Shown here piece after piece: positions 24,118-45,041 of a stretch of DNA of 64,000 nucleotides. Under the pieces are notes generated by a model, which was not told where the DNA came from, did no database searches, and saw only the letters and a program-made list of their open reading frames with translations. Source of the stretch: Providencia manganoxydans (GTDB lineage Bacteria > Pseudomonadota > Gammaproteobacteria > Enterobacterales > Enterobacteriaceae). A program made the position numbers and the translations under genes. The stretch spans positions 1 to 64,000 of the forward strand of contig NZ_CP067099.1 in the NCBI RefSeq assembly GCF_016618195.1, written 5' to 3'. The first letter of the stretch is position 1, and the number at the start of each line of letters is the position of its first letter.

Positions 24118-24127
24118 AAGTGCTCCT

Positions 24128-29088: not shown

Positions 29089-29122
29089 ATAATTGTTAAA
29101 TACACTCAAAATATGATGTGTA

Positions 29123-29164: not shown

Positions 29165-29170
29165 AATGCT

Positions 29171-29341: not shown

Positions 29342-29427
29342 CATTTTAAATAAACAATCTAATTTATTATACGTTAATAAAAAAGAATAACCGTATGCTA
29401 AAGGTTAGCACACGGTTTATATCAAAT

Positions 29428-30909
29428 TTAATTTTTTCTGAAAAATAAAGGAAGTAATAATGTGCTTAGTATCAAAATAACCAACGTTGATATCATGACC
29501 CCCGTGAATGCTTGGTCAAAAGCAATATTAGCCTGCGTGATTAATACATTAGCACTATCACTAGGCAAGCTTTCTGCAACGATAAATGCTTCATCAATAC
29601 TGTCATAAGCTTTTGTATCAACAATAACGTCATCAGGTAACGATAGTTTCATAGTATAAATGGCACTCATCAGCCCTCCCATGAAGGTCACACCTAGAAC
29701 ACTACCGATTTCATAAGCAACCTCTTCAATAGATGCAGCCATACCTGCTTTACTATCTGGAGCATTTAACATAACAGTGGTTGATGCTGTGGTGAACGCA
29801 ACTCCTAGCCCAAAGCCAATAAAAAATAAGAATGCTAATAATATGGCTCCAGTTGAGCTTTGATATACATATGTAAGGCCGATCACCCCAATCAATGTAC
29901 AAACAAAGCCAAAAATAGTGAGATATCTTTCACCTATTTTATGTAAAAACATACCTGCTAAAGGACCGGCTAATACCGATGCCAATGGAATAGGAATGAT
30001 ATACATCGCGGCTTGAAGGGGGGTATACCCCATCACGAGTTGCAGTCTTTGGCTTAACAGCAATTCAATACCAACAATAATCACCATTGATAATATGGCC
30101 ATAATAACGCCAGCGCTAAAACGTGGGTTAGCAAATAATTTAAAATCAATCATTGGCGATTGAGAACCCATTTGTCTACGGGTAAATATTGTCAAAAATA
30201 CGCCACCAATTACCGCTGCAATAACAAATTCCCACCAGTTTGTATAAGGTTTACCGAGTTCTTTTAAAGCATAAATAGCTCCTATCAAGCCAATCAGCAC
30301 CAAACCAGAACCCATATAATCAATTTTTTGCGAACCTTCACCACCACATTTAGGAATGAGAAAACACGCAAAAGGTAATACAAGTAATACAACAGGCACA
30401 TTAATTAAAAAAACCGATCCCCACCAGAAATGGTTAAGCAAGATCCCTCCAACTAAAGGCCCTATTGCGGCTCCACCGGAAGCAACCGCAGACCAAATAC
30501 CAATTGCTAACGCACGTTCTTTTGGCTCTAGAAAAACATGTCTAACGATCGATAAGGTGGCAGGCATACTCATTGCAGCCCCAACAGCCAAAAAACCACG
30601 TGATAAAATCAAACTCGTGGCTGTAGGCGAAAATGCAGCACAAAGTGATGCAAGTGCAAATAGGGGTAATCCCATCAAAAACATGGTCTTATGACCAATA
30701 CGATCACTTAACATACCCGCAGCAGGCAATAACCCAGCCACAATCAATGGATAAGCATTCATGATCCATAATTTTTCGGAAGATGTTGCTCCTAAATCAT
30801 GTGTTAATCGAGGTAAAGCGGTATATAACACAGTGACATCGATAACGATGAGGAAAAGTACACTTGAAACTAGAAGTAAAATAATCCAGCGTTTGTAATC
30901 TGCTAGCAT
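29428..30909 (-). CDS. smvA: MFS efflux pump SmvA (14-TM, cationic biocide/methyl viologen export)
   Basis: The 493-residue protein has 14 predicted helices (DHA2/QacA type). It contains motif A GMLSDRIGHKTMF near 65, motif C GIWSAVASGGAAIGPLVGG near 136 and AAMSMPATLSIVRHVF. It resembles SmvA of Salmonella and Klebsiella, which exports methyl viologen, chlorhexidine and other cationic biocides. The adjacent divergent TetR gene is the smvR arrangement known from those genera. In Providencia and Proteus such pumps contribute to biocide tolerance in published work; I infer the same here. The operator candidate lies in the 94-bp gap. Confidence 0.85.
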   Translation of the reverse strand: MLADYKRWIILLLVSSVLFLIVIDVTVLYTALPRLTHDLGATSSEKLWIMNAYPLIVAGLLPAAGMLSDRIGHKTMFLMGLPLFALASLCAAFSPTATSLILSRGFLAVGAAMSMPATLSIVRHVFLEPKERALAIGIWSAVASGGAAIGPLVGGILLNHFWWGSVFLINVPVVLLVLPFACFLIPKCGGEGSQKIDYMGSGLVLIGLIGAIYALKELGKPYTNWWEFVIAAVIGGVFLTIFTRRQMGSQSPMIDFKLFANPRFSAGVIMAILSMVIIVGIELLLSQRLQLVMGYTPLQAAMYIIPIPLASVLAGPLAGMFLHKIGERYLTIFGFVCTLIGVIGLTYVYQSSTGAILLAFLFFIGFGLGVAFTTASTTVMLNAPDSKAGMAASIEEVAYEIGSVLGVTFMGGLMSAIYTMKLSLPDDVIVDTKAYDSIDEAFIVAESLPSDSANVLITQANIAFDQAFTGVMISTLVILILSTLLLPLFFRKN

Positions 30910-31003: not shown

Positions 31004-31540
31004 ATGGGACGTCAACGAACGATTGATCGCGATAAAGTACTTGATGCTGCTGAAGACATTGTCATTAAACAAGGTGCTGCGGCTCTGACTATTGATGCTG
31101 TTGCAAAATCAATGGGAATTTCTAAAGGTGGAGTTCAATATTGTTTTGGAAACAAAGAAGCTTTAATCGACGCTATGTTTGATCGCTGGAGCTACTCCTA
31201 TGATCAAATATTTAACCGTGAAATTGAAAAAGATGACTCCCCTGAAAACCGTATCAATGCCCATCGACTCGCAACATACGAGCACGATAAAACCGCCATT
31301 GCAAAAGGAGCCGCATTAATGGCTTCATTATTACAAACACCTGAATACTTAGAAAGTACACGAACTTGGTATCGAGATCGTTTACGTAACCTAGACACGT
31401 CAACAGATCAAGGGAAACGCGCTCGTTTAATGTTTCTTGCCACCGAAGGTGCTTTTATACTGCGCTACTTTGGGTTAATGGATATTGATGATAACGAATG
31501 GCAAGAAATGTTCCGTGATATGTCACGTTTCTTAGGTTAA
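31004..31540 (+). CDS. smvR: TetR-family repressor SmvR
   Basis: This 178-residue TetR protein has an N-terminal HTH (about 8-55, IDRDKVLDAAEDIVIKQGAA, SMGISKGGVQYCFGNKEALI) and a helical C-terminal ligand domain. It is divergent from smvA with a palindrome between them, matching the smvA-smvR pairs of other Enterobacterales, where SmvR represses the pump. Start ATG 31004 has GAGG 9 bases upstream. The symbol rests on the pairing and on similarity recalled, not on a search. Confidence 0.82.
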   Translation: MGRQRTIDRDKVLDAAEDIVIKQGAAALTIDAVAKSMGISKGGVQYCFGNKEALIDAMFDRWSYSYDQIFNREIEKDDSPENRINAHRLATYEHDKTAIAKGAALMASLLQTPEYLESTRTWYRDRLRNLDTSTDQGKRARLMFLATEGAFILRYFGLMDIDDNEWQEMFRDMSRFLG

Positions 31541-31589: not shown

Positions 31590-32426
31590 TCATCCATCTA
31601 ACCATCGTTTTGCTTGCAAAATTAGCGGTAAATCGACCATTTTCCCATCGACTTTAAATGCATATTGGTCTTGAGCTTTATGTAACACAGCTTTAGACCA
31701 AGCGACCTGCTGCTCGCTTATATCAAACGACTGTTTGATTATTGGAACTTGAGCCGGATGGATTGCTAATTTAGCAGTGAAACCTAAAGCTTTACCATGT
31801 AAGCATTCGGCCTCAAGTACTGATAACTCATCAATATCCGGTGTTACACAATCAATGGGAGATAAAAGCCCCGCTAAGCGTGAAGCAAGCACTACCTGTG
31901 TTCTTGCAAATAACAACGATTCTCGTGACATGTCACACTGCATATCTAATGAGAAATCTAACGAACCAAATGCCAAACGGTAAACCCCTGAACTCGCAAT
32001 CTCATGTATACGATGTAGCCCCCATGCCGTTTCAATAATCGCGATGATGGGGCAATCTTTATCGGCAGATAAGTGAGAAAGCAGATGTGTTCTCACTTTA
32101 TTAACCATGATTGCAGATTCAACTTTAGGTATAACAAGATAAGACAAATAAGGTAATAAATGATTATTGGTTATCCAATCAATATCTTTTTGATATTCAA
32201 CACTATCTGGTTGGTTAATTCGAATCGCTATTTTGGGTGATTGCCCATTCTGTTGATAATTTATTAGCCAGCTTGCAATTTCTTGTCTAGCTATAGGTTT
32301 ATGTAAAGGATGAACTGAATCTTCTAGGTCTAAAATCAATACATTTGAACCACTAATACAAGCTTTATCAAAGAATTGAGGATGATCACCGGGAACAAAT
32401 AAATAAACCGTTGCATAATCAGCCAT
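31590..32426 (-). CDS. HpcH/HpaI aldolase / CitE-like lyase, siderophore locus
   Basis: This 278-residue TIM-barrel protein is of the citrate lyase beta-subunit/HpcH type. It contains VYLFVPGDHPQFFDKACIS at the start, metal/substrate motifs LILDLEDSVHP near 30, AIIETAWGLHRI near 128, and FGSLDFSLDM near 150. In staphyloferrin B loci SbnG, from a related fold, makes the citrate unit; this protein is nearer CitE. It faces the NIS synthetase gene across a Fur-like box and so likely belongs to the same regulon. Whether it makes citrate, cleaves a CoA ester or supplies another acid is open. Confidence 0.75.
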   Translation of the reverse strand: MADYATVYLFVPGDHPQFFDKACISGSNVLILDLEDSVHPLHKPIARQEIASWLINYQQNGQSPKIAIRINQPDSVEYQKDIDWITNNHLLPYLSYLVIPKVESAIMVNKVRTHLLSHLSADKDCPIIAIIETAWGLHRIHEIASSGVYRLAFGSLDFSLDMQCDMSRESLLFARTQVVLASRLAGLLSPIDCVTPDIDELSVLEAECLHGKALGFTAKLAIHPAQVPIIKQSFDISEQQVAWSKAVLHKAQDQYAFKVDGKMVDLPLILQAKRWLDG

Positions 32427-32500
32427 GGTTGTACCTTTCTTGTTAATTATTTGAATAGCATATTTATTTCCTTTCGCTCACATCTGAGAATAAAAAAAAG

Positions 32501-32515
32501 AATAATTATCATTTA
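32501..32515. promoter_or_regulatory. Fur-box-like site in the siderophore divergent promoter
   Basis: AATAATTATCATTTA resembles degenerate Fur boxes (GATAAT-type hexamers on both strands). It lies between the divergent lyase gene (start 32426) and the NIS synthetase gene (start 32645). The match is partial, but the locus is a siderophore operon. Confidence 0.6.
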
Positions 32516-32644
32516 CTATTTTTTTTTGTAATGCTAACGTTATTAGAATCTTCTTTCAAGTATTCTTATCTATATTCTCTCGTTAATGAATATAGATTAT
32601 ATATGACGTTAATTGATTCATTTTCACAGCTTAAGAGGCTGATT

Positions 32645-34519
32645 ATGATAAATAACCCTATAAATAAAGCAGCTTTTAGCATTAATGAAAAACACTCGAA
32701 TAATAATAGTCTTAGACGCTTTATTCATTGTTTATTTGCTGAGAACCTCATTGATAAAAAACGAATTTATTGGGATACAGATCATTGCGGATATATTTAC
32801 AAACTCAAGAACGCTCCTGATAAAATCCTTTTTAATAATATGGAAATCTACCCGGCAGATACATTCTTTAATTATGGGGATATTTATTTAATTAATAAAA
32901 ACAATCAAAAAGAAATTATTCAAACGACAGATTATCTTCTGGATAAGTTAGTCGATGAATTAGATATAAAATTTAATCATAATAATATAAATAAATTAAA
33001 ATCAGATATTAAAAATAGTATCAATAATGATATTAACGCACGCAACTATCGTACCAAATGGTTAACACAGATTAACTCTCAAATGGAAGAAGGCAATATC
33101 CGCTACTTCACTGATTGGGTTGCTGAACAATATAGTGTACGTAATGCAGCTTTGTTTCTTGATCAATGGGGGTCATTAGAAGGTCATCCTTATTATCCGA
33201 CATGGAAAAGTAGACCAAACATGAGTTTTCAAGATGTCGCCGCTTACTCTCCTGAATTTAATGCAACCGTCAATTTAACAATTATGGCTCTTCGCCGAGA
33301 TATGGCCTATGTTGAATCACTACCGCATGTGTCAAATATTCACGAGTGGTTCCTTCAACAATTCCCTATCGTCGCTCAGCAATGGGTTAAATGGCTCAGC
33401 CAACAAGGGAAAGATCCGCAACAATGGCTACCCCTTCCCGTTCATGAATGGCATTTAAATCATTGGGTAAAACAACAAGCAGCTTCACTAATTGAAGATG
33501 AGATTCTATTGATTGATGGCCCTCAGTTAGAAACAAAACCTACTATGTCATTTCGAACAATGCTACCAACAGATGCGGCTAATCGCGCATTTATCAAGCT
33601 ACCCATCGCCGTTTGGATGACTAGCGAAATGCGTAGCTTACAAGCGAAATCTATTCATATGGGGCCTAGGATCAGTCAGCTCATTGACGATATTTTAAAT
33701 CACGAACATGGTTTCAATGGAAAAATCCAGTCTCTGCGTGAAGATATGGGAATTTATTACCGCCATGCGATCGAGCAAGATGATGCCGCAGGCCGCTTTC
33801 TTTCAGTCGTATTTCGTTGCGCCGAGGTTTATGAAAACAACGATCATTTACTGCCCATAACTGTAGCAACTCTGTTTACTGATTTACCCTATCAGCCTCG
33901 GCCAATATTTACTGAACTGATTGAAAAATCAAGTTTAACACCTAGACAATGGTTTAACCATTATGCAACTGTGATTTTAGAGCCTTGTATTTCACTGTTT
34001 TTACTTTATGGGGTGGCTCTGGAAGCCCACCAGCAAAATACGCAAGTACTTTTCACTGCCCAAGGCATTCCTGAAAAGTTTTTAATACGCGATTATGGTG
34101 ATGGACGAACTTTTTTACCGCTATTGAACCAACGAGATTATCAGCTACAAGCTTATCGCTGGCCTGGTATCTTACCGACTGTTTTTGAAGAAGATATAGA
34201 GCCAGTTAGAACGTTTTTAATCGATGCTTGTTTAGTCAGTCATTTACATGAATTAGCCGTGCATCTAACCCGATATTATCGATTGACCAATCATCAACTC
34301 TGGGGAGAATTAAAAACCATTGTCCATGATATTTTTAAACAACTCCAACCTCGAATTGATGCCAATTTATGGCAGCATGAATATCAAATATTTATGAATG
34401 CGCCTTGGCAAACGCGTTCGCTACTTAGTATGCATATTCAACAATATACTAATTATCGAATACAACATGGGTTAACCAATCCTTTTCGGTTATTCCCCGA
34501 AATAATTAGCACTCCATAA
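32645..34519 (+). CDS. NRPS-independent siderophore (NIS) synthetase, IucA/IucC family
   Basis: This ATP-dependent enzyme condenses a carboxylate such as citrate with an amine. Of the possible starts I choose ATG 32645 (MINNPINKAAFSINE), with AAGAGG 6 bases upstream, not ATG 32531 lying in the promoter region. It is 624 residues long. The family shows GHPYYPTWKSRPNMSF near 180 (substrate loop), KLPIAVWMTSEMRSLQ near 355 and the C-terminal FhuF-like domain with AHQQNTQVLF and FLIRDYGDGRTFLPL near 510. It is the only NIS synthetase in the locus, so a simple siderophore with one or two amine couplings is suggested. Confidence 0.9.
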   Translation: MINNPINKAAFSINEKHSNNNSLRRFIHCLFAENLIDKKRIYWDTDHCGYIYKLKNAPDKILFNNMEIYPADTFFNYGDIYLINKNNQKEIIQTTDYLLDKLVDELDIKFNHNNINKLKSDIKNSINNDINARNYRTKWLTQINSQMEEGNIRYFTDWVAEQYSVRNAALFLDQWGSLEGHPYYPTWKSRPNMSFQDVAAYSPEFNATVNLTIMALRRDMAYVESLPHVSNIHEWFLQQFPIVAQQWVKWLSQQGKDPQQWLPLPVHEWHLNHWVKQQAASLIEDEILLIDGPQLETKPTMSFRTMLPTDAANRAFIKLPIAVWMTSEMRSLQAKSIHMGPRISQLIDDILNHEHGFNGKIQSLREDMGIYYRHAIEQDDAAGRFLSVVFRCAEVYENNDHLLPITVATLFTDLPYQPRPIFTELIEKSSLTPRQWFNHYATVILEPCISLFLLYGVALEAHQQNTQVLFTAQGIPEKFLIRDYGDGRTFLPLLNQRDYQLQAYRWPGILPTVFEEDIEPVRTFLIDACLVSHLHELAVHLTRYYRLTNHQLWGELKTIVHDIFKQLQPRIDANLWQHEYQIFMNAPWQTRSLLSMHIQQYTNYRIQHGLTNPFRLFPEIISTP

Positions 34520-34585
34520 AATAAGAAGGCGATTATAACGCTGTTCCCTTCATTTTATTAAAAATTAATTGAATGATATTTAAAT

Positions 34586-36757
34586 ATGAAAAATAAACCA
34601 ATAATGAAAAAAAGCAAATACACAGCTAAAAATATAAACATATATTCTACGTGGTTATATGTTGTTATAGGGCTATCCAGTACAATAACTGCACATGCTC
34701 AAACTAACGAGCCTAAAAATAAAGATAGTCTCTTTGTAACCACAAAAAGTAATAATAACCAACAACCTAATAATTTTTCATCTCGAACAATGCAAGCTGG
34801 GTTATTAGGTGATAAAGATATTATGGATATTCCATTTAATATCTCGAATTACAATTCTACCTATATGCAGTCACAACAAGCACAGCAAATTTCAGATATT
34901 TTATCCCATGATACCTCAATACAGATTAGTAGCTCAAAAGGTGGGCTTCTTGATTCTTTATATATTCGAGGATTTCCGATTACTGAAGGTAATATCGGCG
35001 AGTTTGCATTAAATGGAATTTATGGTGTATCTCCTAATTTTCAGCTGTTAACTGATTATGCAGAGCGTGTTGATATCTTAAAAGGGCCAGCTTCACTGCT
35101 ATACGGTATGTCTCCTGAAGGAGGTGTCGGTGGCGTTATCAACGTCGTGACTAAGCGTGCAAGTGCCCAGCCTATTACGCAATTAACCGCTCAGTACCTC
35201 AGTGATTCACAATTAGGCGGCAAACTGGATGTAGGACGCCTCTATGACCTAGGGAATAACCAATATTTTGGTATCCGTATTAACGGTAGCTACACCAATG
35301 GTGATACCCCCGTAGACCATCAAAAACGTAGGCTAGGTGTTGGTGCAATTGCCTTAGATTACTCTAATGAACGTTTTCGCGCGTCCTTAGATTTAATTAC
35401 TCAAAACCAAAACATGAATGCGAGTAACCGGCCTTTTTATTTAGGTGCTGATGGCATTGTTCCTTCTGCCCCAAATGGAAAAACTAATTTAGCCAGCCCT
35501 TGGACATGGTGGAAATCTAATGATGATTCCGCACTACTGCATATGGAATATGACATATTAAGTAATACTTCTCTATTTATGGACATAGGCGGAGCACATA
35601 CCCGTATTGATCGAGTTAGTGAACAAACCTATACCATTCTTAACGACCAAGGTGATATATCAACCTATATCATGAATTTTCAAAGCAAAACTCAACGCTA
35701 TTCAATGGGGACTGGGGTTAAAAGCGAATTCATGACAGGGGATATATCACACCAACTCGCATTACAATGGAATCAATATTTTGATCGCTATAATGTCGGT
35801 ACTACAGCAGGGACACCTTATATAACCAATCTATTTAACCCTACTTATATTGATAAACAGATCCCGACTTACCCTGAAATAACTAAGCGCTCTGAAAATA
35901 CACTGTCAGGAATCTCCTTCGTCGATACTATTGGTTTCTTTAATGATGATTTTATGGTGACTCCAGGAGTTCGCTATCAAAAAGTACAGTCTGATAACTT
36001 TACTTCAGGCCAGCTTTCAACGCGTTATGATGAGTCCGCAATAACACCTCTCATCGGAGTATTATTTAAACCTACAGAAGATATTTCTCTATATGCAAAT
36101 TATGTAGAAGGGCTAAGTAAAGGCAGTGCAGCACCAGCCAATGCAAAAAACAGTGGCGAAATGATGAAACCATTTCGTTCAAAACAGTACGAGTTAGGTG
36201 TGAAATATGAACGACCTTCCGCAATAACAACATTAAGCCTATTCCAAATTAGTAAACCAAGTGGGTCATTAGATCCTCACAGTATGATTTATTCAGCAAA
36301 TGATGAACAAAGAAATAGGGGGATAGAACTGAGCATATCAGGTAAACCTTTTGAATCTCTTCGTTTAACGGGAGGAGTTACTTATATTCAAGCTGAGCTG
36401 ACTAAAACTGCATCAGGACAAAATAAAGGTCATGAACCAATAGGTGTATCACCGTGGGTAGCGAATATTGGTGCAGAATATGATATTCCCTCAGTTTCTG
36501 GTTTAAGTATCAATGGCAATGTTAATTATCACACTCGCCAATACGTAAACAAAGAAAATACGCATTCAATTCCTTCATGGACAACTGTTGATGTCGGTTC
36601 TGCTTACAAAACAACGGTGTCTAATACCCCTGTCACTTTAAGGTTAAATATCAACAATATTTTAAATGAACGTTATTGGTCTGGTGTAGCGTCTTATAGC
36701 ACTTTCGCTCAAGGCTCACCAAGAACGGTAATGGGATCAATCACTGTTGACTTTTAA
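34586..36757 (+). CDS. TonB-dependent siderophore receptor
   Basis: This 723-residue outer-membrane receptor has an N-terminal signal sequence (about 1-40; LYVVIGLSSTITAHA, then a likely cut), a plug domain (about 75-200, SLYIRGFPITEGNIGEFALN and GPASLLYGMSPEGGVGGVIN) and a 22-strand barrel ending in aromatic ...GSITVDF. It imports a ferric siderophore using TonB energy. It follows the NIS synthetase gene by 66 bp in the operon and is the probable receptor for the locus's own product. The order synthetase-receptor-decarboxylase recalls the pbtA-ireA region of Proteus mirabilis, from memory only. Confidence 0.9.
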   Translation: MKNKPIMKKSKYTAKNINIYSTWLYVVIGLSSTITAHAQTNEPKNKDSLFVTTKSNNNQQPNNFSSRTMQAGLLGDKDIMDIPFNISNYNSTYMQSQQAQQISDILSHDTSIQISSSKGGLLDSLYIRGFPITEGNIGEFALNGIYGVSPNFQLLTDYAERVDILKGPASLLYGMSPEGGVGGVINVVTKRASAQPITQLTAQYLSDSQLGGKLDVGRLYDLGNNQYFGIRINGSYTNGDTPVDHQKRRLGVGAIALDYSNERFRASLDLITQNQNMNASNRPFYLGADGIVPSAPNGKTNLASPWTWWKSNDDSALLHMEYDILSNTSLFMDIGGAHTRIDRVSEQTYTILNDQGDISTYIMNFQSKTQRYSMGTGVKSEFMTGDISHQLALQWNQYFDRYNVGTTAGTPYITNLFNPTYIDKQIPTYPEITKRSENTLSGISFVDTIGFFNDDFMVTPGVRYQKVQSDNFTSGQLSTRYDESAITPLIGVLFKPTEDISLYANYVEGLSKGSAAPANAKNSGEMMKPFRSKQYELGVKYERPSAITTLSLFQISKPSGSLDPHSMIYSANDEQRNRGIELSISGKPFESLRLTGGVTYIQAELTKTASGQNKGHEPIGVSPWVANIGAEYDIPSVSGLSINGNVNYHTRQYVNKENTHSIPSWTTVDVGSAYKTTVSNTPVTLRLNINNILNERYWSGVASYSTFAQGSPRTVMGSITVDF

Positions 36758-36768
36758 GAGGTAAAATC

Positions 36769-38163
36769 ATGGTGGATCAAACTAGCTTAGTCGATATCTC
36801 AACTGTTACTCTTTTATCAGCAAAAACAATCGCCCCAATAGAGCTTCCTCCTATTATGGATCCTCTAATTCATCAATTATGTTTTGCTAATAATGAACAG
36901 CTTGTCGGCTTGATTAAGCGGTATGGTTCACCATTGAACTTAGTTTTTCCTCATACAATGAAACAAAATATCCTAAAATTGAAAGCCGTTTTTCAAGAAC
37001 ATCACGTGAAAGGATGCATTTTATATGGCGTAAAAGTTAATCAATCAAATATCCTACTCAAAACAGCTATCGAAGAAAATATTGGCGTTGATGTTTCAAG
37101 CCTCCATGAATGGAGAGACGCTTACCAATACGGTATTTCACCTGAAAAACTCTGCGCGACAGGGCCCGCCAAAACAGATGATTTCCTCTGGCAACTTATA
37201 TTACATCATTCGCTGATTGTCGTAGATTCCCTTGAAGAGCTACACGATATTCTGCGTTTATTAGGATCTCATTCACGTAAAGCAAGAATATTATTGCGCT
37301 ATCAACCGCATTCAAGCCATTCACGATTTGGTATGAAATACCCAGCTTTTGTTAGTGCTCTTAAATTAGTTAAACAACATAATCAATTACAATGGCAAGG
37401 TATTCACTTCCATTTAGGTGGCTATACACTAACCTCACGGGTGCAAGCTTTTCACGAAATATTACCACTGATTGAATTATCCCAACAATTAGGGCTTAAC
37501 ATCCAAACTATCGATATCGGAGGTGGGCTACCGATTCAATATGTCCCAACAGAACACTATCAAACTTGGATTAATAATCAAACTACTGAAACTTATCAAA
37601 ATCACTGTATTCCAGCCGATTTTTATCCTTATGGTAGTGAACAATCCGCCGAACAATGGCTTAACGCCTTACTGACAAGCCAATGTACGGATAATGAGAC
37701 TATAGCCCAATACATTAATAGGCTAAATATCACACTAACGATAGAACCTGGCCGTAGCCTTGTCGATCAAAGTGCTATCACTCTATTTCGAGTAGTGCGT
37801 ACCTGCCAGCAATCCAAACACCCTATTATATTTGTTGAAGGCAGTAGTTTTAGCGCCTGTGAAACATGGTTTAACTCTGAGTTTTTAATCGACCCCTTTC
37901 ATATTGTTACTAAGCACGCAAAACAACAACCTATCCGAGCTTGGATAGCGGGACATAGTTGTTTAGAAGATGACGTTATTACTCACAGGCTTATTTTATT
38001 TAATAACCTTCCCCAAGCAGGTGACTTATTAGGATTCGTTAATACTGCGGGATATCAAATGGATTTGCTTGAAAATCAATTTCATCGACACCCAATACCT
38101 TGTCGGTTATATGCACAGGAAAACAATGTTGGGCAGTTTATCTTTTTCAAAGACACTAAATAG
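36769..38163 (+). CDS. PLP-dependent decarboxylase (group III, Orn/DAP/SbnH-like)
   Basis: This 464-residue alanine-racemase-fold protein is of the Orn/Lys/diaminopimelate decarboxylase type. The PLP lysine lies in CILYGVKVNQSNILL near 85. GIHFHLGGY near 220, TIDIGGGLP near 250 and IEPGRSLVDQS near 328 are standard landmarks. It has the SbnH feature set and thus probably decarboxylates a diaminopropionyl- or amino-acid-citrate intermediate, or a free amino acid. ATG 36769 has AAGAGG 9 bases upstream and follows the receptor by 11 bp. Confidence 0.82.
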   Translation: MVDQTSLVDISTVTLLSAKTIAPIELPPIMDPLIHQLCFANNEQLVGLIKRYGSPLNLVFPHTMKQNILKLKAVFQEHHVKGCILYGVKVNQSNILLKTAIEENIGVDVSSLHEWRDAYQYGISPEKLCATGPAKTDDFLWQLILHHSLIVVDSLEELHDILRLLGSHSRKARILLRYQPHSSHSRFGMKYPAFVSALKLVKQHNQLQWQGIHFHLGGYTLTSRVQAFHEILPLIELSQQLGLNIQTIDIGGGLPIQYVPTEHYQTWINNQTTETYQNHCIPADFYPYGSEQSAEQWLNALLTSQCTDNETIAQYINRLNITLTIEPGRSLVDQSAITLFRVVRTCQQSKHPIIFVEGSSFSACETWFNSEFLIDPFHIVTKHAKQQPIRAWIAGHSCLEDDVITHRLILFNNLPQAGDLLGFVNTAGYQMDLLENQFHRHPIPCRLYAQENNVGQFIFFKDTK

Positions 38164-38171
38164 GTAAGCTT

Positions 38172-39188
38172 ATGATCTACAGCAAAATCACTGATTTGAT
38201 AGGCAATACGCCCATTTTACGTATTGCAATTCCCCATAAGAAAAGTGCCCTATTTTTTAAAATAGAAAAGAACAATCCCGGCGGAAGTATGAAAGACAGA
38301 ATGGCTCGCAATATGGTCATAGCTGGCCTTAAGTCTGGAAAAATTAAACCTAAAAGCACCATCGTAGAATCATCATCAGGCAATACTGGAATAGGCCTTG
38401 CACTTGCTGCCATCGAGTTTGGTTTGCATTTTATTGCTGTTGTTGATCATCACGCCTCCCCTGACAAAATCGCAATAATGAAAGCATTAGGTGCTGAAAT
38501 CCGTTATGTCACAGGCAACTATCAGGAAAATGAAGTGGCTGTTGTCGAACGCCAACGCCTAGCGAATGAACTCGCATCTCAGCTCCCCAATGCAACATTT
38601 ATGAATCAATCTGACAATGCAGCAAATTCAGGTGGTTATGCTGCATTAGTTTGTGAACTGATAGAACAAATTGGCAGAATTGATGCTTATGTAGGCTGCG
38701 TTGGTACCGGTGGTTCAATAACAGGTGTATCCCAAGGATTAAAGTCACATAATCCACAAACTATCACAGTTGCTGTTGAACCAGAGGGATCCATTGTTTT
38801 TGGGCATCAAGGAAAACCTTATTATCAATCAGGAACAGGAACCCCTGAAGGGGATGTCGTTGGGTTAGTACTAGACTACAGCTGTATTGACCATAATGCA
38901 CAAGTTTCAGATATTCAAGCATTTGAAACGGCACGATATCTTGCTAGCCAATATGGTTTGTTAGTCGGAGGCTCAACTGGCGGAATTGTTTATAAAGCTT
39001 TAGAGTTCATTAATAACGATACTATTCACGGTAATATTGTTGTCATCGTTGCCGATGGCGGTGAAAAATACCTTAACACCGTATTCAATGAGCAGTGGCT
39101 CAGCGCTCGAAATCTGATCTCACCTGATATATCTCACCAGCTTAATTATTGGCTCACTAATACGATTTCATTAGAGAAAGCTAGCTAA
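38172..39188 (+). CDS. SbnA-like PLP synthase (cysteine-synthase fold, diaminopropionate biosynthesis)
   Basis: The 338-residue protein is of the cysteine synthase/beta-synthase fold. NNPGGSMKDRMA near 35-46 carries the PLP-binding Lys; VESSSGNTGIGLALAAIEFG near 66 is the substrate loop; VGCVGTGGSITG near 176 holds the phosphate. SbnA joins O-phosphoserine to glutamate in the first step to L-2,3-diaminopropionate. A plain cysteine synthase cannot be excluded by fold, but the setting beside a decarboxylase and an opine dehydrogenase argues for the SbnA role. It lies 8 bp after the decarboxylase. Confidence 0.82.
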   Translation: MIYSKITDLIGNTPILRIAIPHKKSALFFKIEKNNPGGSMKDRMARNMVIAGLKSGKIKPKSTIVESSSGNTGIGLALAAIEFGLHFIAVVDHHASPDKIAIMKALGAEIRYVTGNYQENEVAVVERQRLANELASQLPNATFMNQSDNAANSGGYAALVCELIEQIGRIDAYVGCVGTGGSITGVSQGLKSHNPQTITVAVEPEGSIVFGHQGKPYYQSGTGTPEGDVVGLVLDYSCIDHNAQVSDIQAFETARYLASQYGLLVGGSTGGIVYKALEFINNDTIHGNIVVIVADGGEKYLNTVFNEQWLSARNLISPDISHQLNYWLTNTISLEKAS

Positions 39189-39198
39189 GGGGGAAGTG

Positions 39199-40368
39199 AT
39201 GTCCAAAGACAAACATCTTAATATAGTGATTTGTGGTGGAGGTCAAACAGGCCACCTTGCTGTAGCTTTGTTTAGTCAATATCCTAATATAAAAGCATCA
39301 CTACTCACCCAAAATACCACAACAGTTGAACGCCACCAGCAACAAAATAATATCCTGTCCGTTCATTACAATAATGGCGAGATAAAAAACTATCCTGTAG
39401 AGCTAATAACCCATTCACCACAACAGGTGATACCTGAAGCCGACATTATTATTCTTACTGTTCCTTCTCACCGCCAAACAAACTGGTTACGTTTTATCTC
39501 TCCTTATTTATCTTCTGATAAAACTGTTTTTATTGGGGCTATTCCTGGGATCAATGGCTTTGACTGGCTTGCTGAACAGTTTTTTAAAGATAATCCTAAT
39601 ATCGTGATTTGGGGAATGAAAGATGTCCCTCATATTGCATGGGGGTTAGAGCCTGGGGTCAAAATCTGTTTCGGTGGTGAAAAATCGGCATTATTTATTG
39701 CTTTTCATCATCGAGAAAATCAAACCAATAAGAAGCGACTTCATGAATGGTTATCAAGGCTATATTCAGCTCCTATTAGTATTCTCGATAATTATTTAGA
39801 AATTACGCTAACACCAGCAAACCCCATCATGCATAGCTCAGTGATCTATGGGCTAATCGGCCCATACGCTCAATGGCATAATAGCTATTTTGAATCGCCT
39901 ATCTGCTGGTGGAATGATTGCACTGAACTTAGTGCCTATTATTTACAGCGTTGCGATGAAGAACGACTCGCTATTTGCCGACATTTAGTCAATTGCGCAG
40001 GTATTTCTTTAGCTACAGTAAAATCCTTAATTGATGAATTACGCGAAGTCTATCCCAACCAAATTGGTGACACAAAAACACTTTGGTCGATCCTGCGTAC
40101 CAATGAAGCCTATCATGGGATCCAATTACCATTAATAAAGTGTGAGCAAAATGGTTGGGCTTTTAATAAACAACATCGAGTATTTCAAGAAGATATTGCT
40201 TATGGGCTAAGTTTACTGGTTCGTATAGGTGAGCATCTCAATATTCCGCTCCCTTATACAAATGAAATATATAACTGGTGTATGAGCTATCTAGGGCTAG
40301 ATCCTAGCATTCCTCATCCAGCCTTCAGTAAACTAAATCTATCCCAATATCAGGTGAACAAACAGTGA
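39199..40368 (+). CDS. Opine/octopine dehydrogenase-family NAD(P) enzyme
   Basis: This 389-residue enzyme has an N-terminal Rossmann fold with IVICGGGQTGHLAVALF near residue 10 and a helical C-terminal octopine/nopaline-dehydrogenase domain (about 195-380, with LTPANPIMHSSVIYGL and SAYYLQRCDEERLA). I chose ATG 39199, 5 bases after AAGGGGGAAG; the GTG 39196 is too close. In staphyloferrin B loci the second diaminopropionate step is by SbnB, an ornithine-cyclodeaminase-fold enzyme, and its substrate is itself opine-like. I infer that this protein is a non-homologous stand-in, or makes an opine-type intermediate. It overlaps the MFS gene by 4 bp. Confidence 0.82.
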   Translation: MSKDKHLNIVICGGGQTGHLAVALFSQYPNIKASLLTQNTTTVERHQQQNNILSVHYNNGEIKNYPVELITHSPQQVIPEADIIILTVPSHRQTNWLRFISPYLSSDKTVFIGAIPGINGFDWLAEQFFKDNPNIVIWGMKDVPHIAWGLEPGVKICFGGEKSALFIAFHHRENQTNKKRLHEWLSRLYSAPISILDNYLEITLTPANPIMHSSVIYGLIGPYAQWHNSYFESPICWWNDCTELSAYYLQRCDEERLAICRHLVNCAGISLATVKSLIDELREVYPNQIGDTKTLWSILRTNEAYHGIQLPLIKCEQNGWAFNKQHRVFQEDIAYGLSLLVRIGEHLNIPLPYTNEIYNWCMSYLGLDPSIPHPAFSKLNLSQYQVNKQ

Positions 40369-41552
40369 ATTTACTGAAAAGCCATCTGATTATCGGGTTC
40401 TTATTTGGTATCCAACTTATTTCAATGGGAGCGATGGAAATGAGTGGGCCTTTTTGGCCTATTCATTTACAAAATAATAGCTCAGATTGGCTATTGTCTT
40501 TTGCTTTGACGATGGTTTATGTCGCGCCAATGGCTGGGATCATGTTAACCAGTACATTTTGGGGGCGAATGGGTGATCGAATGGGTAATAAAGCAATGAT
40601 GATCCGTGCATTGCTTGGCTTAGCAATTACCCAAATTTTATTATCATTTTGTAACGACCCTTGGCTAATTTTATTATTGAGAACTGTGCAAGGAGCTTGC
40701 GCAGGGTATATTGCTCCGGCTCAAGCTTATGGCGTTTCAGTCACCGAGCCTAAAAAGCGAACACAACTTTTTGCCTTCCTGCAAGTCTCTACAAATATCG
40801 GATCTTTACTGGGAGCACTGTGTGGTGGGTTAATCTTAGATTATCTCAATTTCTTTTGGATCAATATGATTGCAGGGCTACTCTGCGCTGTTTGTGCTGT
40901 CACTGTATTTGTTTTTTTACCTTCAGATAAAAAAACAAATACAGTGATGCAGGCAAAAAAATCATCTAACAACTCAAAAAAATACCGCCCTCAACAAATA
41001 GTGAAACATCTTATATTGTTAATGGGGCTTTTATTAATGAGTCGAATGATCACTCTCCCCAGTTTTTCATTATACCTTAATCATACCTACTCAATAGATT
41101 ATTGGGTTATTGGATTGATTTATGGTCTACAAGCTATGGGGGTTATTCTCTCAGCCCAACGATGGGCTAAATGGTTCGAATTTCAATCCATAACTGTATC
41201 ATTGATTCGTTTAAAATGGATTACCTTTGCCTGCATCATTGTTGTTATTGGTCTAGCAATAACCCCTATAATCTGGGGATTCGCCTTACTGTATTTGCTT
41301 TGGGGGATTTTACTTGGTGCAACAACACCAATACTCACTGCATTAATCTCTTCTGCTACATCTTCTGAATATCAAGGCTATGTACTTGGTTTATCACAAA
41401 GTATCAATCAATTCGCCTCTATAGGAGGAATTGCCTTAGGAAGCATATTTATTCTATTTCCTGGAATAGATTGGCTTTTTTATTATGTTTCAATTAGTTA
41501 TATCGCATCCTTAATTGCAATCATTTTACTGATAAAACATTCTCATAAATAA
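40365..41552 (+). CDS. MFS transporter, probable siderophore exporter
   Basis: This 395-residue protein has 12 predicted helices. It starts at GTG 40365, overlapping the previous stop as GTGA. Typical landmarks are the loop-2 motif GRMGDRMGNKAM near 66 and RTVQGACAGYIAPAQAYGVS near 105. It takes the place of SbnD/IucD-adjacent exporters in related loci, so export of the siderophore across the inner membrane is the natural role. Its position between a biosynthetic gene and the binding-protein gene supports this. It could instead be an importer of the ferric complex. Confidence 0.8.
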   Translation: MNLLKSHLIIGFLFGIQLISMGAMEMSGPFWPIHLQNNSSDWLLSFALTMVYVAPMAGIMLTSTFWGRMGDRMGNKAMMIRALLGLAITQILLSFCNDPWLILLLRTVQGACAGYIAPAQAYGVSVTEPKKRTQLFAFLQVSTNIGSLLGALCGGLILDYLNFFWINMIAGLLCAVCAVTVFVFLPSDKKTNTVMQAKKSSNNSKKYRPQQIVKHLILLMGLLLMSRMITLPSFSLYLNHTYSIDYWVIGLIYGLQAMGVILSAQRWAKWFEFQSITVSLIRLKWITFACIIVVIGLAITPIIWGFALLYLLWGILLGATTPILTALISSATSSEYQGYVLGLSQSINQFASIGGIALGSIFILFPGIDWLFYYVSISYIASLIAIILLIKHSHK

Positions 41553-41560
41553 GGGACAAT

Positions 41561-42706
41561 ATGAAAGGAAAACATAAGCTATCTAGCAAAATAATCTCTC
41601 TGTTATTGTTTACTTTTACCTTGCTATTCTCTACGGCCACGTCAGCAAAGCCTATTGTTGTTACTGATATTTTAAATAGAAGAGTTACTGTCAACGTTCC
41701 AGTAAATAAAGTCATTTTAGGCGAAGGCCGCATGCTTTATCTTGTTGCCATGCTAGATAAAGAGAATCCTGCAAAACGGATTGTTGCAATGGGGAACGAC
41801 CTGCAAACTTCTGATCCTGCAACATGGCGTCAATATAGTCAGCATTTTCCTCAACTCAAAAATATCCCAACATTCAGTGGGACAGAAAAACGCTCTTTGA
41901 ACATAGAACATGCGTTAGCTTTGCAACCAGATGTCATCATTATGAATATCGAAGCAAAAACTGCAATTGAAGAACAAGGGCACGATAAGGCATTACAGAA
42001 AGCAGGTATTCCGGTTATCTATGTTGATTTTCGCTATAACCCATCAAACAATACGCCACTTACCATGCGCTTATTTGGTGCTTTATGGGGTGAAGAAAAA
42101 ATCGCAGAGCAATTTATTGAATTTAGAGAACAGCAATTAAAGCGAGTTAGTGATGTACTCGCAAAGAACACCCCAAAGAAACCCAGAGTTTTTATTGAAC
42201 GCATTGGCGGTTATACCGATGAATGTTGCCTTACTTTTGGTGATGGTAATTTTGGCCGCTTTGTTTCGCTTGCTGGCGGTGACAATATTGGTGCAAAAAA
42301 TGCCCCTAACACATTCTACATGATGAACCCTGAACAAGTACTTGTCGCAGATCCAGATAAAATTGTTATTACCAGTGCTAATTTTTCAAAGTTTATGCCT
42401 GAAGGAGATTGGATTGGCTTAGGCCCCAATGAAGACCTCAATGCAGCCAAAATAAAATTAGAGAAATACTTAAAAAAACCGGCTTATACCGGCAGTAATG
42501 CAGTTAAAAACCAACAGTTTTATGCTATTTGGCATCAATTTTATAATAGCCCTTACGATTTTATTGCCATACAGCAGCTCGCACACTGGATCCATCCAGA
42601 GATATTTGCTGATTTAAATGCAGATGACACTTTTAAAATATTCTATGAAAAATTTTTATCTATTCCTTATGAACCTGGATACTTTGTAAGCTTAGAGAAT
42701 AAGTAG
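41561..42706 (+). CDS. Periplasmic iron-siderophore substrate-binding protein (FhuD/TroA-like)
   Basis: The protein is 381 residues with a signal peptide (about 1-29; LLLFTFTLLFSTATSA then K-P). It belongs to the helical-backbone metal-receptor class: VTDILNRRVTVNVPVNKVIL at the mature N-terminus, ALALQPDVIIMN near 120, YVDFRYNP near 150, and FGRFVSLAGGDNIGAKN near 225. It should carry the ferric siderophore to an ABC permease. No permease or ATPase is in the window, so it must rely on partners elsewhere. Confidence 0.83.
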   Translation: MKGKHKLSSKIISLLLFTFTLLFSTATSAKPIVVTDILNRRVTVNVPVNKVILGEGRMLYLVAMLDKENPAKRIVAMGNDLQTSDPATWRQYSQHFPQLKNIPTFSGTEKRSLNIEHALALQPDVIIMNIEAKTAIEEQGHDKALQKAGIPVIYVDFRYNPSNNTPLTMRLFGALWGEEKIAEQFIEFREQQLKRVSDVLAKNTPKKPRVFIERIGGYTDECCLTFGDGNFGRFVSLAGGDNIGAKNAPNTFYMMNPEQVLVADPDKIVITSANFSKFMPEGDWIGLGPNEDLNAAKIKLEKYLKKPAYTGSNAVKNQQFYAIWHQFYNSPYDFIAIQQLAHWIHPEIFADLNADDTFKIFYEKFLSIPYEPGYFVSLENK

Positions 42707-42729
42707 CTTTTTTTAAGGAGGGTGATGTT

Positions 42730-43140
42730 ATGGCTAGCAATACCTACCATATTGAATTAAAACCAATACAATTTCTTTGCTCATCAGAAGAAACAGATGA
42801 ACGGCATATTGATTATCTGAGTCACAAAATTGCCTGTGACGGGACTTGGACAACACCAATTCCATGTGAAATACACACAGGTATTATTATGGATGGCAAC
42901 CATCGCTACCAAGTCGCTAAACAACTAAATTTGTCGCTATTACCTTGTATATTACTGAGTTACCAAGATAACCGAGTCAAAGTTAACTACCAAAACTCTG
43001 ATAAACCTTATGATATACAAAAAATTTTTGAAGCCATTTTATATCAAAACAAGCTATTGCCTTATAAAACAACAAAACATCATTTTTCGCCATTCTTACC
43101 GACAATTAATGTAAATTTAGACCTACTAAAAAGGCTGTAA
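42730..43140 (+). CDS. SerK/SbnI-like ParB-fold protein (probable free-serine kinase)
   Basis: This small 136-residue ParB/sulfiredoxin-fold protein has MDGNHRYQVAKQLNLSLLPC near residues 57-76, matching the DGxHR motif of SerK and the N-terminal part of SbnI. In staphyloferrin B loci SbnI phosphorylates free serine to give the SbnA substrate O-phosphoserine. That fits the SbnA-like gene here. It is much shorter than SbnI (about 254), so it may lack the heme-sensing C-terminal part. It is the last gene of the operon, 23 bp after the binding protein, with AAGGAGGGTG upstream. Confidence 0.78.
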   Translation: MASNTYHIELKPIQFLCSSEETDERHIDYLSHKIACDGTWTTPIPCEIHTGIIMDGNHRYQVAKQLNLSLLPCILLSYQDNRVKVNYQNSDKPYDIQKIFEAILYQNKLLPYKTTKHHFSPFLPTINVNLDLLKRL

Positions 43141-43208: not shown

Positions 43209-45041
43209 TTACTCAACCGTTACCGATTTAGCCAAATTACGTGGTTGGTCAACATCAGTACCTTTAATCAATGCAACATGGTAAGACAACAACTGTAGAG
43301 GCACTGTATAGAAAATTGGGGCAATCAGTTCTTCAACATGAGGTAGAGGAATAATTTTCATATTTTCACTCTCCTCAAAACCAGCATCTTGATCAGCAAA
43401 TACGTATAGTAAGCCACCACGAGCGCGAACCTCTTCAATGTTAGATTTTAATTTTTCTAACAGTTCGTTGTTTGGCGCGATTATAATGACTGGCATATCC
43501 GCATCAATTAACGCTAGAGGGCCATGCTTCAATTCACCTGCCGCATACGCTTCAGCGTGAATATAAGAGATCTCTTTAAGTTTCAGCGCACCCTCAACCG
43601 CAATTGGGTATTGCTCACCACGACCAAGGAACAAAGCATGGTTTTTATCAGAAAAATCTTCCGCCAGCGCTTCAATCACTTTATCGTGAGATAACATACT
43701 TTCGATACGTGCAGGTAATGCATGCAGAGCATTAGCAATATCTTGCTCTAATGCAGGATCACCGCCTTTAATGCGTCCCATATATGCCACTAGCATCAGC
43801 AACACAGTTAACTGTGTAGTAAACGCTTTAGTTGAAGCAACACCAATCTCTGCACCTGCTTTAGTCATGAGTGCAAAGTCTGATTCACGAACCAATGAAG
43901 AACCTGATACGTTACACACCGCAAGAGACGTCAAATAACCTAATTCTTTAGATAAACGTAATGCCGCCAATGTATCAGCTGTTTCACCTGATTGTGAAAG
44001 TGTGATCATCAAGCTACCTTTACGATGGGCAGGTTTACGGTAGCGATATTCAGAAGCGATTTCCACATCACAAGGGATACCAGCTAGAGATTCAAACCAG
44101 TAACGAGCAACCATTCCAGCGTTGTAAGAGGTACCACAAGCAACAATTTGAATATGCTCAACTTGCGATAAAATTTCAGCTGCTTTAGGGCCTAATTCAC
44201 TGAGATCGATACCATTACTTTGACTAAAACGCCCTTCTAGGGTGTTTTTAATTGCCATTGGTTGTTCATAGATCTCTTTTTGCATATAGTGACGGTAAAC
44301 ACCTTTATCACCTGCATCGTATTGAACGTTTGATTCAATTTGCTCACGTTCAACCGCTTCCCCTTGCTGATCAAATACACGTACTGTACGGCGTGTAACT
44401 TCAGCAACATCCCCTTCTTCAAGGTAAATAAAACGGCGAGTAACTGGCAATAAAGCAAGCTGATCTGATGCTAGGAAGTTTTCACCAACACCCAGACCTA
44501 TCACTAATGGGCTTCCCGAACGGGCCGCCACTAATAATTCAGGAGTACGGCTATCCATGATCACGGTGCCGTAAGCACCACGTAATTGAGGAATAACACG
44601 CTGAACCACTTCAACTAAAGAGCCACCTTTTTGCTGCTCATGATGAACAAGGTGAGCAATCACTTCAGTATCTGTTTCAGAGCTAAACACATAACCAAGT
44701 TGTTTTAACTCATCCTTCAGTTCTAAGTAGTTTTCAATAATGCCGTTATGAACAACAGCAATATAACCAGAAGTATGAGGATGAGCATTGCGTTCGCTTG
44801 GAACACCATGTGTAGCCCAACGAGTATGCGCGATCCCGGTTCCGCCTGATACTGGATTTTTTTCTGCTTCTTCCGCCAGCATTTGAACTTTACCAACTTC
44901 ACGCAAACGTTGAAGATGGCCTTCATGGTCAACTACAGCCATACCCGCAGAGTCATAACCACGATACTCAAGGCGACGAAGGCCTTCTATTAGAATTTCT
45001 GCGATATCACGTTGTGCGACAGCACCTACAATTCCACACAT
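43209..45041 (-). CDS. glmS: Glutamine-fructose-6-phosphate aminotransferase (isomerizing)
   Basis: It makes glucosamine-6-phosphate from fructose-6-phosphate and glutamine, the first step to UDP-GlcNAc. The 610 residues equal the family length. [12 protein letters not shown] carries the N-terminal nucleophile Cys after Met removal. The glutaminase domain is about 2-240, followed by two SIS domains ([15 protein letters not shown] near 302, [13 protein letters not shown] near 350, and the C-terminal KSVTVE). It lies downstream of glmU in the same direction, the usual glmUS order, with a 201-bp leader holding stem-loops that could act with a GlmZ-type sRNA. Confidence 0.98.

Follow-up and report, generated by a model that had tools for sequence, protein, structure and literature searches.

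This gene cluster of Providencia manganoxydans is probably the Providencia copy of the Proteus pbt (proteobactin) locus and would make a rhizobactin-type aminopolycarboxylate siderophore, where we infer both the product and the directions of the enzymes. The most likely product is rhizobactin or the closely related rhizobactin B; the opine dehydrogenase of the locus would then build the siderophore itself and not stand in for a missing precursor enzyme. Two observations point this way. Pseudomonas sp. FEN, a rhizobactin maker, carries an orthologous locus in which all IucA/IucC, Octopine_DH, and RipC-like matches of its genome lie, and the rhizobactin skeleton calls for one enzyme of each kind present at the locus. 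The building blocks in Providencia may differ, since the chemistry comes from FEN and Caballeronia and Providencia is known from its genes.

The window analyzed is a stretch of 64,000 nucleotides. Open reading frame and profile checks found genuine reading frames of the expected families for all genes named (Table 1), which confirms the observation of an earlier note at 31590..43140. A single NIS synthetase is accompanied there by an SbnA-like enzyme, a decarboxylase, an octopine-type dehydrogenase, and a short protein resembling SerK. The likely start of the NIS synthetase is an ATG behind AAGAGG; in 70 of 73 related loci, similarity to this protein starts no earlier than residue 35 (residues 7 to 28 in the other three). 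The best Fur-like site before the NIS gene was equalled in 123 of 1,000 shuffles of the 218-base stretch and is not significant. The receptor, binding protein, and MFS exporter would serve siderophore traffic.

Table 1. Features of the pbt-type locus in the window (bits are given as score/cut-off where two numbers appear)
Feature	Coordinates	Strand	Evidence and remarks
HpcH/CitE-like lyase	31590..32426	-	PF03328, E 5.2e-32; pbtI equivalent; closest NCBIfam model RipC, below cut-off
Weak Fur-box-like site upstream of NIS gene	32498..32516	+	13/19 matches
NIS synthetase, pbtA type	32531..34519	+	PF04183 (IucA_IucC) and PF06276 (FhuF); likely true start 32645
TonB-dependent siderophore receptor	34586..36757	+	TIGR01783, 374 bits, above cut-off
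PLP decarboxylase, Orn/Arg/DAP type	36769..38163	+	PF02784; alanine-racemase-type fold
SbnA-like PLP (PALP) beta-replacement enzyme	38172..39188	+	PF00291; TIGR03945, 250/350 bits
Octopine-type opine dehydrogenase	39196..40368	+	PF02317 (Octopine_DH), E 5.5e-30
MFS exporter, FslB-like	40365..41552	+	PF07690; NF041040 (FslB), 146/600 bits
Periplasmic ferri-siderophore binding protein	41561..42706	+	PF01497; ferrichrome/ferrioxamine B periplasmic model, 213/374 bits
Short SerK/ParB-like protein, 136 aa	42730..43140	+	No Pfam match; SerK model, E 2.3e-6, 27/380 bits

The 73 loci of relatives were fetched by the dehydrogenase alone, so this gene is present in them by construction. The NIS synthetase, the decarboxylase, and the SbnA-like enzyme each matched in all 73, with a match to less than 75% of the window protein in two cases, the NIS synthetase of L028 and the decarboxylase of L065. 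The MFS exporter was found in 72, the SerK-like protein and the receptor in 68 each, the binding protein in 64, and the CitE-like lyase in 26. The grouping of these genes is not chance. Loci of this type were seen in Providencia, Proteus, Serratia, Pseudomonas, Burkholderiales, Thalassospira, and rhizobia. IucA_IucC matches in seven genomes amounted to one in each of six and two in the seventh (G006). Of the 73 loci, 21 (20 Pseudomonas and 1 Paraburkholderia) also hold a class V aminotransferase; it is superfluous to the proposed rhizobactin route and counts against that route.

The link to rhizobactin comes from strains with known chemistry. Two siderophores of Pseudomonas sp. FEN were identified by mass spectrometry and NMR, rhizobactin (C15H27N3O8, m/z 378.1866) and the more abundant rhizobactin B (m/z 392.2020); the two are closely related and differ solely in the hydroxyacid, with citramalate replacing malate in rhizobactin B (PMC7676072, cited from excerpts). 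Rhizobactin consists of lysine, ethylenediamine, alanine, and malate, and both compounds contain alanine and a single amide to a hydroxyacid (excerpts of PMC7676072). The entire locus is present in FEN (L033) at 39 to 69% identity per gene, and IucA_IucC, Octopine_DH, and RipC-like each match once in the draft assembly, in every case inside this locus. PF10100 found no match in the FEN genome in a profile search run without a positive control. The authors of the FEN study instead assigned rhizobactin B to rhbAB homologues (excerpts of PMC7676072), which counts against the assignment to this locus. The rhizobactin 1021 genes were considered as the FEN source and dropped, given the one IucA_IucC match in FEN. 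The rhizobactin 1021 pathway uses two IucA/IucC enzymes.

Rhizobactin was also found in S. meliloti DM4 (excerpts of PMC7676072), and the plasmid loci read here belong to other S. meliloti records. The dehydrogenase search matched four S. meliloti plasmids, and the core is present in both plasmid loci that were read. In Caballeronia mineralivorans PML1(12), rhizobactin is reportedly an NIS siderophore, according to the title of a 2023 study by Blanco Nouche et al., which is said to have used targeted mutagenesis and LC-MS; the rhizobactin genes may therefore already be published. A Caballeronia sp. protein (P0177) is an SbnA-like enzyme of the locus type, 88% identical to that of L008, with the E and S residues described below present by eye. 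Among the papers listed in our literature search, none joined rhizobactin with proteobactin or pbt, and the two listed with both rhizobactin and opine concerned, in the parts retrieved, rhizobactin 1021 and mentioned opine in unrelated matters. The pbt/proteobactin-rhizobactin link and the idea that the CitE-like gene supplies citramalate are new here.

The opine dehydrogenase described in the earlier note is genuine. It scores above the PF02317 cut-off, is the sole PF02317 match in the Providencia genome, and finds octopine dehydrogenase in the PDB at E 1.4e-20. Its AF2 model (pLDDT 90.9) has octopine dehydrogenase and N-(1-D-carboxyethyl)-L-norvaline dehydrogenase (CENDH) at fold ranks 1 to 4, with the staphylopine, yersinopine, and pseudopaline dehydrogenases at ranks 5 to 14. 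CENDH is a pyruvate enzyme. H213, R328, and D333 are invariant in all 77 dehydrogenases aligned, so that the His-Asp dyad and the Arg sensor of octopine dehydrogenase are kept; excerpts of PMC2924402 name His212 and Arg324 in that pyruvate enzyme, and the number of the Asp was taken from the alignment with the PDB octopine dehydrogenase.

The headline of the earlier note was that this enzyme could be a non-homologous SbnB run in the oxidative direction. In that reading, the SbnA-like enzyme would join O-phosphoserine and glutamate to ACEGA, which the dehydrogenase would oxidize to 2-oxoglutarate and diaminopropionate. The NIS synthetase and decarboxylase would then yield a staphyloferrin- or rhizoferrin-like product, e.g., dicitryl-ethylenediamine (m/z 409.109). 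In its favour, ACEGA counts formally as an opine, the reaction of opine dehydrogenases can run both ways, a SerK-like gene is present, SbnA is the top NCBIfam model for the PALP enzyme, and the NIS synthetase and MFS exporter are nearest to FslA and FslB of rhizoferrin. The Providencia genome also shows no SbnB match: neither PF02423 nor TIGR03944 matched anywhere in the complete assembly (one contig, 4.34 Mb, 100% complete), and PF02423 matched in 8 of 14 control genomes. The earlier note was correct that SbnB is missing from the locus, and the idea of an SbnB elsewhere in the genome was dropped. Among 19 genomes searched with TIGR03944 (18 of the 73 locus genomes and our own), 16 had a match at E 0.001 and 2 a match above cut-off, both on contigs other than that of the locus.

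Against the stand-in for SbnB, the orthologous locus with the sole IucA_IucC and Octopine_DH matches of FEN belongs to a strain whose reported siderophores are rhizobactins, with their alanine unit and single hydroxyacid amide, and a dehydrogenase spent on diaminopropionate would leave the locus without a maker of the opine bond. Staphyloferrin B, moreover, takes three NIS synthetases (SbnE, SbnF, and SbnC, in the source excerpts), against one here. The SbnA-like enzyme itself points the same way. SbnA (TIGR03945) is its top model, yet the score is under the cut-off, and the locus enzymes form a clade of their own (22 of 22 rows, support 100/98) apart from SbnB-paired SbnA. E121 and S147 are fixed in all 77 locus enzymes, against R and Y in all three SbnB-paired SbnAs, and by its sequence the enzyme is not of the SbnB-paired type. 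We therefore consider the SbnB replacement very improbable; the other option in the earlier note, a dehydrogenase that builds an opine-type metallophore, gains support from the orthologous locus in the maker of the alanine-bearing rhizobactin and rhizobactin B.

R132, Y152, and S185 of SbnA are reported to be key to O-phosphoserine binding. R132 and Y152 correspond to E121 and S147 of the locus enzymes, and the S185 position is G in the locus and SbnB-paired groups alike. These O-phosphoserine residues are thus not kept, which counts against the O-phosphoserine step of the rhizobactin route as well. The SerK-like protein is proposed as the supplier of O-phospho-L-serine, with a presumed kinase activity. 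Where the earlier note saw a SerK/SbnI-like kinase gene, a short protein with weak SerK similarity is indeed present, and it misses the SerK family cut-off, a further point against the rhizobactin route; its FEN orthologue matches SerK at E 1.3e-11 and has a subthreshold ParB_N match. D55, G56, H58, and R59 are invariant in all 32 proteins aligned, and the AF2 model has a pLDDT of 95.5.

A survey of 197 Enterobacterales genomes sought an either-or swapping of SbnB and opine dehydrogenase and found Octopine_DH in 18 and SbnB above cut-off in 1. Around the PF02317 genes, 20 loci of about 3.4 kb were fetched (of 21 matches), and an SbnA-like neighbour occurred in 2, the window among them, so most octopine-type dehydrogenases in these genomes are not of the pbt-type locus.

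The NIS synthetase, the only IucA_IucC match in the genome, has FslA of rhizoferrin (296/1000 bits) and not the Sbn synthetases as its top NCBIfam model. The decarboxylase matches LysA and, more weakly, FslC, both below cut-offs; its PDB matches are diaminopimelate (DAP) decarboxylases and the N-citrylornithine decarboxylase 7kh2, and orthologues on Sinorhizobium and Serratia plasmids are annotated as the Y4yA family. FslA is a citrate enzyme, and the same enzyme logic could act on other blocks to give an opine-NIS hybrid outside the rhizobactins, for example one in which citrate replaces (citra)malate (m/z 436.193), ornithine replaces lysine, or 2-oxoglutarate replaces pyruvate. The dehydrogenase is 39 to 52% identical to the non-Providencia dehydrogenases among the matches listed, which leaves room for substrate shifts, and the CitE-like gene might serve a different acid. 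We judge such a hybrid unlikely, because the orthologous locus of FEN goes with two closely related compounds that differ in the hydroxyacid alone and because 70 dehydrogenase positions, the catalytic ones among them, are invariant in 77 of 77 sequences.

For the rhizobactins, the CitE/RipC-like lyase may be the supplier of citramalate (or malate), a role suggested by its distribution. It is nearest to RipC, the citramalyl-CoA lyase of itaconate degradation (RipC_Ccl, 164/375 bits), and its best PDB matches are the acyl-CoA lyases 8khl and 9nzb. The gene occurs at all 23 Pseudomonas loci, including that of the rhizobactin B maker, at all 3 Enterobacterales loci, and at none of the 47 others, a distribution that tracks taxonomy and represents few independent events; it is absent from both S. 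meliloti plasmid loci read. FEN carries the gene yet makes both rhizobactin and rhizobactin B. RipC-like matches numbered three in our genome, five in Ensifer BR816, two in the Bradyrhizobium tested, and one in FEN (in the locus), and since several genomes have such matches elsewhere, a locus without CitE need not mean an organism without citramalate.

The proposed route to a rhizobactin would begin with the phosphorylation of serine by the SerK-like protein. The SbnA-like enzyme would turn the activated serine into aminoacrylate and add the alpha-amine of lysine or N6-acyl-lysine, giving N2-(2-amino-2-carboxyethyl)lysine, and the decarboxylase would strip the new carboxyl of the diaminopropionyl unit to leave an aminoethyl arm (the ethylenediamine bridge). 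The opine dehydrogenase, in its ordinary reductive direction, would join pyruvate to the terminal amine to form the N-(1-carboxyethyl) (alanine) end; the fold and catalytic residues are those of such an enzyme, and the direction and substrate are predicted. The single NIS synthetase, clear in its family and putative in its substrate, would amidate the epsilon-amine of lysine with malate or citramalate. The four steps after the phosphorylation of serine may run in a different order. Judging from its distribution, the CitE/RipC-like lyase might act as a synthase that makes citramalate from acetyl-CoA and pyruvate, and the Providencia siderophore would then resemble rhizobactin B.

We lean, by a narrow margin, toward a broader view in which the pbt-type locus is a rhizobactin-family cluster, composed of a lysine-primed beta-replacement/decarboxylation/opine-dehydrogenase module and one NIS synthetase, the CitE/RipC-like protein is a dedicated citramalate synthase setting rhizobactin versus rhizobactin B, and proteobactin is rhizobactin B or a near analogue. 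If true, this would supply the missing structure, with exact masses, of a siderophore that received its name in a urinary pathogen in 2010. The opine dehydrogenase would have an ordinary reductive job, the CitE-like gene would be a building-block supplier, and the assignment of rhizobactin B to the rhizobactin 1021 genes would come into question. The combination of Y4yA decarboxylase, cysteine synthase-like protein, octopine dehydrogenase, and IucA/IucC would then be a signature for genome mining.

Among known systems, the pbt locus of Proteus mirabilis has the same gene set. The excerpts of a review list pbtA-I (PMI0229-0239) in the same order, with the CitE-like gene on the opposite strand followed by NIS synthetase, receptor, decarboxylase, PLP enzyme, octopine/opine dehydrogenase, MFS, binding protein, and a hypothetical protein, and in the P. 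mirabilis locus examined here (L002) each of the nine genes is present and their order is kept, at 44 to 73% identity to the window. This bears out the likeness drawn in the earlier note. The P. mirabilis region adds an ABC permease and ATPase in the review excerpts, neither seen among the flanking window reading frames scanned. In line with the earlier note, no structure of proteobactin is given in these excerpts, which predict a hydroxycarboxylate with oxaloacetate as a likely substrate. The rhizobactin and rhizobactin B makers are represented by FEN and the S. meliloti plasmids, which carry the orthologous core, and Providencia is likened to them from its genes alone. Rhizobactin 1021 (rhbABCDEF) shares the name and the NIS chemistry and is a hydroxamate of different structure (excerpts of PMC7676072); it is called plain rhizobactin in PMC12815270 and drawn as a hydroxamate in PMC9694258, so the two are easily confused. 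The staphyloferrin B cluster (sbnA-I) resembles the locus in the SbnA-like fold, LysA-type decarboxylase, SerK/SbnI-like protein, and NIS synthetase, whereas the locus lacks SbnB, has one NIS synthetase and not three, places its SbnA-like enzyme in another clade, and adds the opine dehydrogenase. The rhizoferrin cluster of Francisella (fslABC) provides the top models for the NIS synthetase and MFS exporter and a weak one for the decarboxylase, and rhizoferrin proper was dropped with all Fsl models under cut-off. To our knowledge, fsl has neither an SbnA-like enzyme nor an opine dehydrogenase. Staphylopine and pseudopaline (CntLM type) are likewise metallophores built by an opine dehydrogenase, but the dehydrogenase here is PF02317 and not PF10100, so a staphylopine-type pathway was dropped, and the locus families include no nicotianamine-synthase-like gene and do include an NIS synthetase.

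The nine-gene locus probably specifies a rhizobactin-type siderophore with an opine dehydrogenase working reductively; the gene functions are predicted, and the argument is carried by one producer. A scan with the window dehydrogenase as the query recovered 73 loci, one of which (L033) belongs to Pseudomonas sp. FEN. This strain makes rhizobactin and rhizobactin B, both identified by HR-MS, MS/MS, and NMR; the former is ethylenediamine joined to alanine, lysine, and malic acid, and in the latter malate is replaced by citramalate (PMC7676072). Our calculated values of 378.1871 and 392.2027 agree with the published m/z of 378.1866 and 392.2020 (PMC7676072), which checks the formulae alone. The FEN draft genome has one match each to IucA_IucC, Octopine_DH, and RipC-like models, and all three fall within L033.

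The full name of rhizobactin gives its alanine as an N-(1-carboxyethyl) group. In the proposed pathway, this N-(1-carboxyethyl)amine would be formed by the pyruvate-using opine dehydrogenase, the hydroxyacid amide on a lysine amine by the NIS synthetase, and the two-carbon bridge between the two amines from a serine-derived aminoacrylate followed by decarboxylation (SbnA-like enzyme and decarboxylase). The step order could vary, and N6 acylation first would leave the alpha-amine alone free. Matches to the NIS synthetase, decarboxylase, and SbnA-like enzyme were present at all 73 loci, one NIS and one decarboxylase match being short. A class V aminotransferase, which perhaps supplies pyruvate or glyoxylate, is encoded close to the core in 21 of the 73 relatives (20 Pseudomonas and 1 Paraburkholderia) and is also annotated at a Serratia marcescens plasmid locus (L100); tblastn found no match to it in the window.

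The candidates of the FEN authors were rhbAB homologues of rhizobactin 1021, with the biosynthesis left open (PMC7676072). One of the two is annotated as a diaminopimelate decarboxylase (PMC7676072) and could, as a guess, be the locus decarboxylase. Rhizobactin as an NIS product is already in print: a 2023 paper describes it, by title, as an NIS siderophore of Caballeronia mineralivorans, and that study may already give its genes, pathway, or homologous clusters. A Caballeronia sp. protein (P0177) is an SbnA-like enzyme of the locus type, with 88% identity to that of one relative (L008). The name rhizobactin is applied to the 1021 hydroxamate in PMC12815270. Unlike in the window, genes for an ECF sigma factor and a FecR-like protein stand ahead of the receptor gene in FEN, and FEN uptake therefore looks to be under cell-surface signalling.

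Positions of features in the window and in related loci
Sequence	Position	Strand	Feature	Basis
Window	start of window		dnaA, dnaN, recF, gyrB	Pfam
Window	15207-17405		732-aa ORF, no Pfam match at 1e-5; then genes for a DUF3686 protein of 1645 aa and a rhomboid protein	
Window	23365-26820	minus	Small sugar-nucleotide cluster upstream: a nucleotidyltransferase gene, two genes of the epimerase/dehydratase kind, and an ORF with no Pfam match at 1e-5	
Window	27679-30909	opposite strands	Two more MFS transporter genes, before the TetR gene	
Window	31004-31540		TetR gene, flanking the locus on one side	
Window	31590-43140		Nine-gene locus	
Window	43209-45041		GATase/SIS-domain gene, glmS by appearance, flanking the locus on the other side	
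FEN, L033	13840-15504		Class V aminotransferase	
FEN, L033	15111-19622		ECF sigma factor, FecR-like gene, receptor	
FEN draft genome, G001:C13	158412		RipC-like match	
FEN draft genome, G001:C13	162924		Octopine_DH match	
FEN draft genome, G001:C13	164039		IucA_IucC match	
S. marcescens pE28_003, L100	5498-7964		IS903B-type transposase gene and decarboxylase gene	
S. marcescens pE28_003, L100	12501-13685		Class V aminotransferase	
S. fredii NGR234 pNGR234a, L078	87333-94378		Core locus	

The earlier note had mainly proposed that the dehydrogenase, run oxidatively, replaces SbnB in making diaminopropionate. Its nine ORFs are all open and of the families claimed, and SbnB is indeed absent, with no match to PF02423 or TIGR03944 in the organism's own genome (a single 4.34 Mb contig), which has one IucA_IucC and one Octopine_DH match. 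The dehydrogenase sequence matches octopine dehydrogenase (E 1.4e-20) and N-(1-D-carboxyethyl)-L-norvaline dehydrogenase (CENDH; E 0.0011). Its structure model (mean pLDDT 90.9) retrieved octopine dehydrogenase and CENDH from the PDB at ranks 1 to 4 and staphylopine-, yersinopine-, and pseudopaline-type enzymes at ranks 5 to 14, and SbnB entries were absent from the best 50 of 1800 fold matches. A published study of octopine dehydrogenase (PMC2924402) describes a His-Asp relay, with Arg324 as the NADH sensor and His212 at the amino acid carboxylate. Residues H213, R328, and D333 align with its His212, Arg324, and Asp329 and are invariant in all 77 rows (the window, the 73 loci, and 3 plasmid loci); this conservation shows that the dehydrogenase is intact and is compatible with either reaction direction. 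An oxidative substitute for SbnB is unlikely, and the locus fits a rhizobactin-type cluster instead; the note's second option, a dehydrogenase building an opine-type metallophore, was right in kind.

The SbnA-like enzyme is the best conserved member of the locus (58 to 88% identity over 73 loci). SbnAs adjoining a true SbnB (L074, L075, and L099) are 29 to 30% identical to it and stand no nearer to it than do CysK/CysM-type enzymes (31 to 34%). A 31-row tree, to be read with a long-branch warning, separated 22 locus enzymes (100/98), 3 SbnB-paired enzymes, and 6 CysK/M-type enzymes. SbnA residues R132, Y152, and S185 are named as key to O-phosphoserine selectivity (PMC12414870). The R132/Y152 sites are E/S in 77/77 locus enzymes and R/Y in 3/3 SbnB-paired ones; both groups have G at the S185 site, which therefore does not separate them. 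With the phosphate-binding residues lost, the donor could be either O-phosphoserine or O-acetylserine. The SerK-like protein argues for O-phosphoserine, though it reaches 27 of 380 bits against the SerK family model, a weak match, and its FEN orthologue 44 bits; its structure model is confident (pLDDT 95.5). Speculatively, the fixed acidic pair E119 and E121 could suit lysine over glutamate.

RipC is the citramalyl-CoA lyase of itaconate degradation. It is the best model for the CitE-like protein, at less than half the RipC cut-off, and the own genome has further RipC-like matches, as do genomes of Ensifer and Bradyrhizobium. Counted within about 10 kb, with some loci cut by contig ends, the CitE-like gene accompanies 23/23 Pseudomonas, 3/3 Enterobacterales, and 0/47 other loci. 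It is also present at the Serratia plasmid locus and is missing from the loci of S. meliloti strains AK83 and USDA1021 and of S. fredii plasmid pNGR234a; S. meliloti, in which the two plasmid loci examined have no such gene, is the species of malate-type rhizobactin. FEN, which has the gene, makes mostly rhizobactin B, yet makes both compounds. With two chemotypes and a taxon-bound gene, the citramalate link is a lead, not a test.

The window dehydrogenase is 87% identical to that of P. rettgeri and 75% to that of P. stuartii, its nearest named relatives. The locus is accessory in the genus, since the dehydrogenase occurs in 3/24 genus genomes (own included) and in 3/60 relatives altogether. 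The Serratia pE28_003 copy may be broken, its decarboxylase gene being overlapped at the start by a transposase gene of the IS903B type. The S. fredii NGR234 core locus lies in a type III secretion/nodulation region, in the nopX-nopL interval.

In the open-access literature examined, we found neither a structure for the product of the proteobactin (pbt) locus nor a role for its dehydrogenase, and no paper naming both rhizobactin and proteobactin. Judged by its genes, the window locus is the pbt locus. The pbt gene list is given in a review (PMC11026637), P. mirabilis pbt (L002) has all nine window genes in unchanged order, and proteobactin genes in Providencia are in a survey (PMC7652902); the gene set, the opine dehydrogenase within it, and its occurrence in Providencia are therefore already known.
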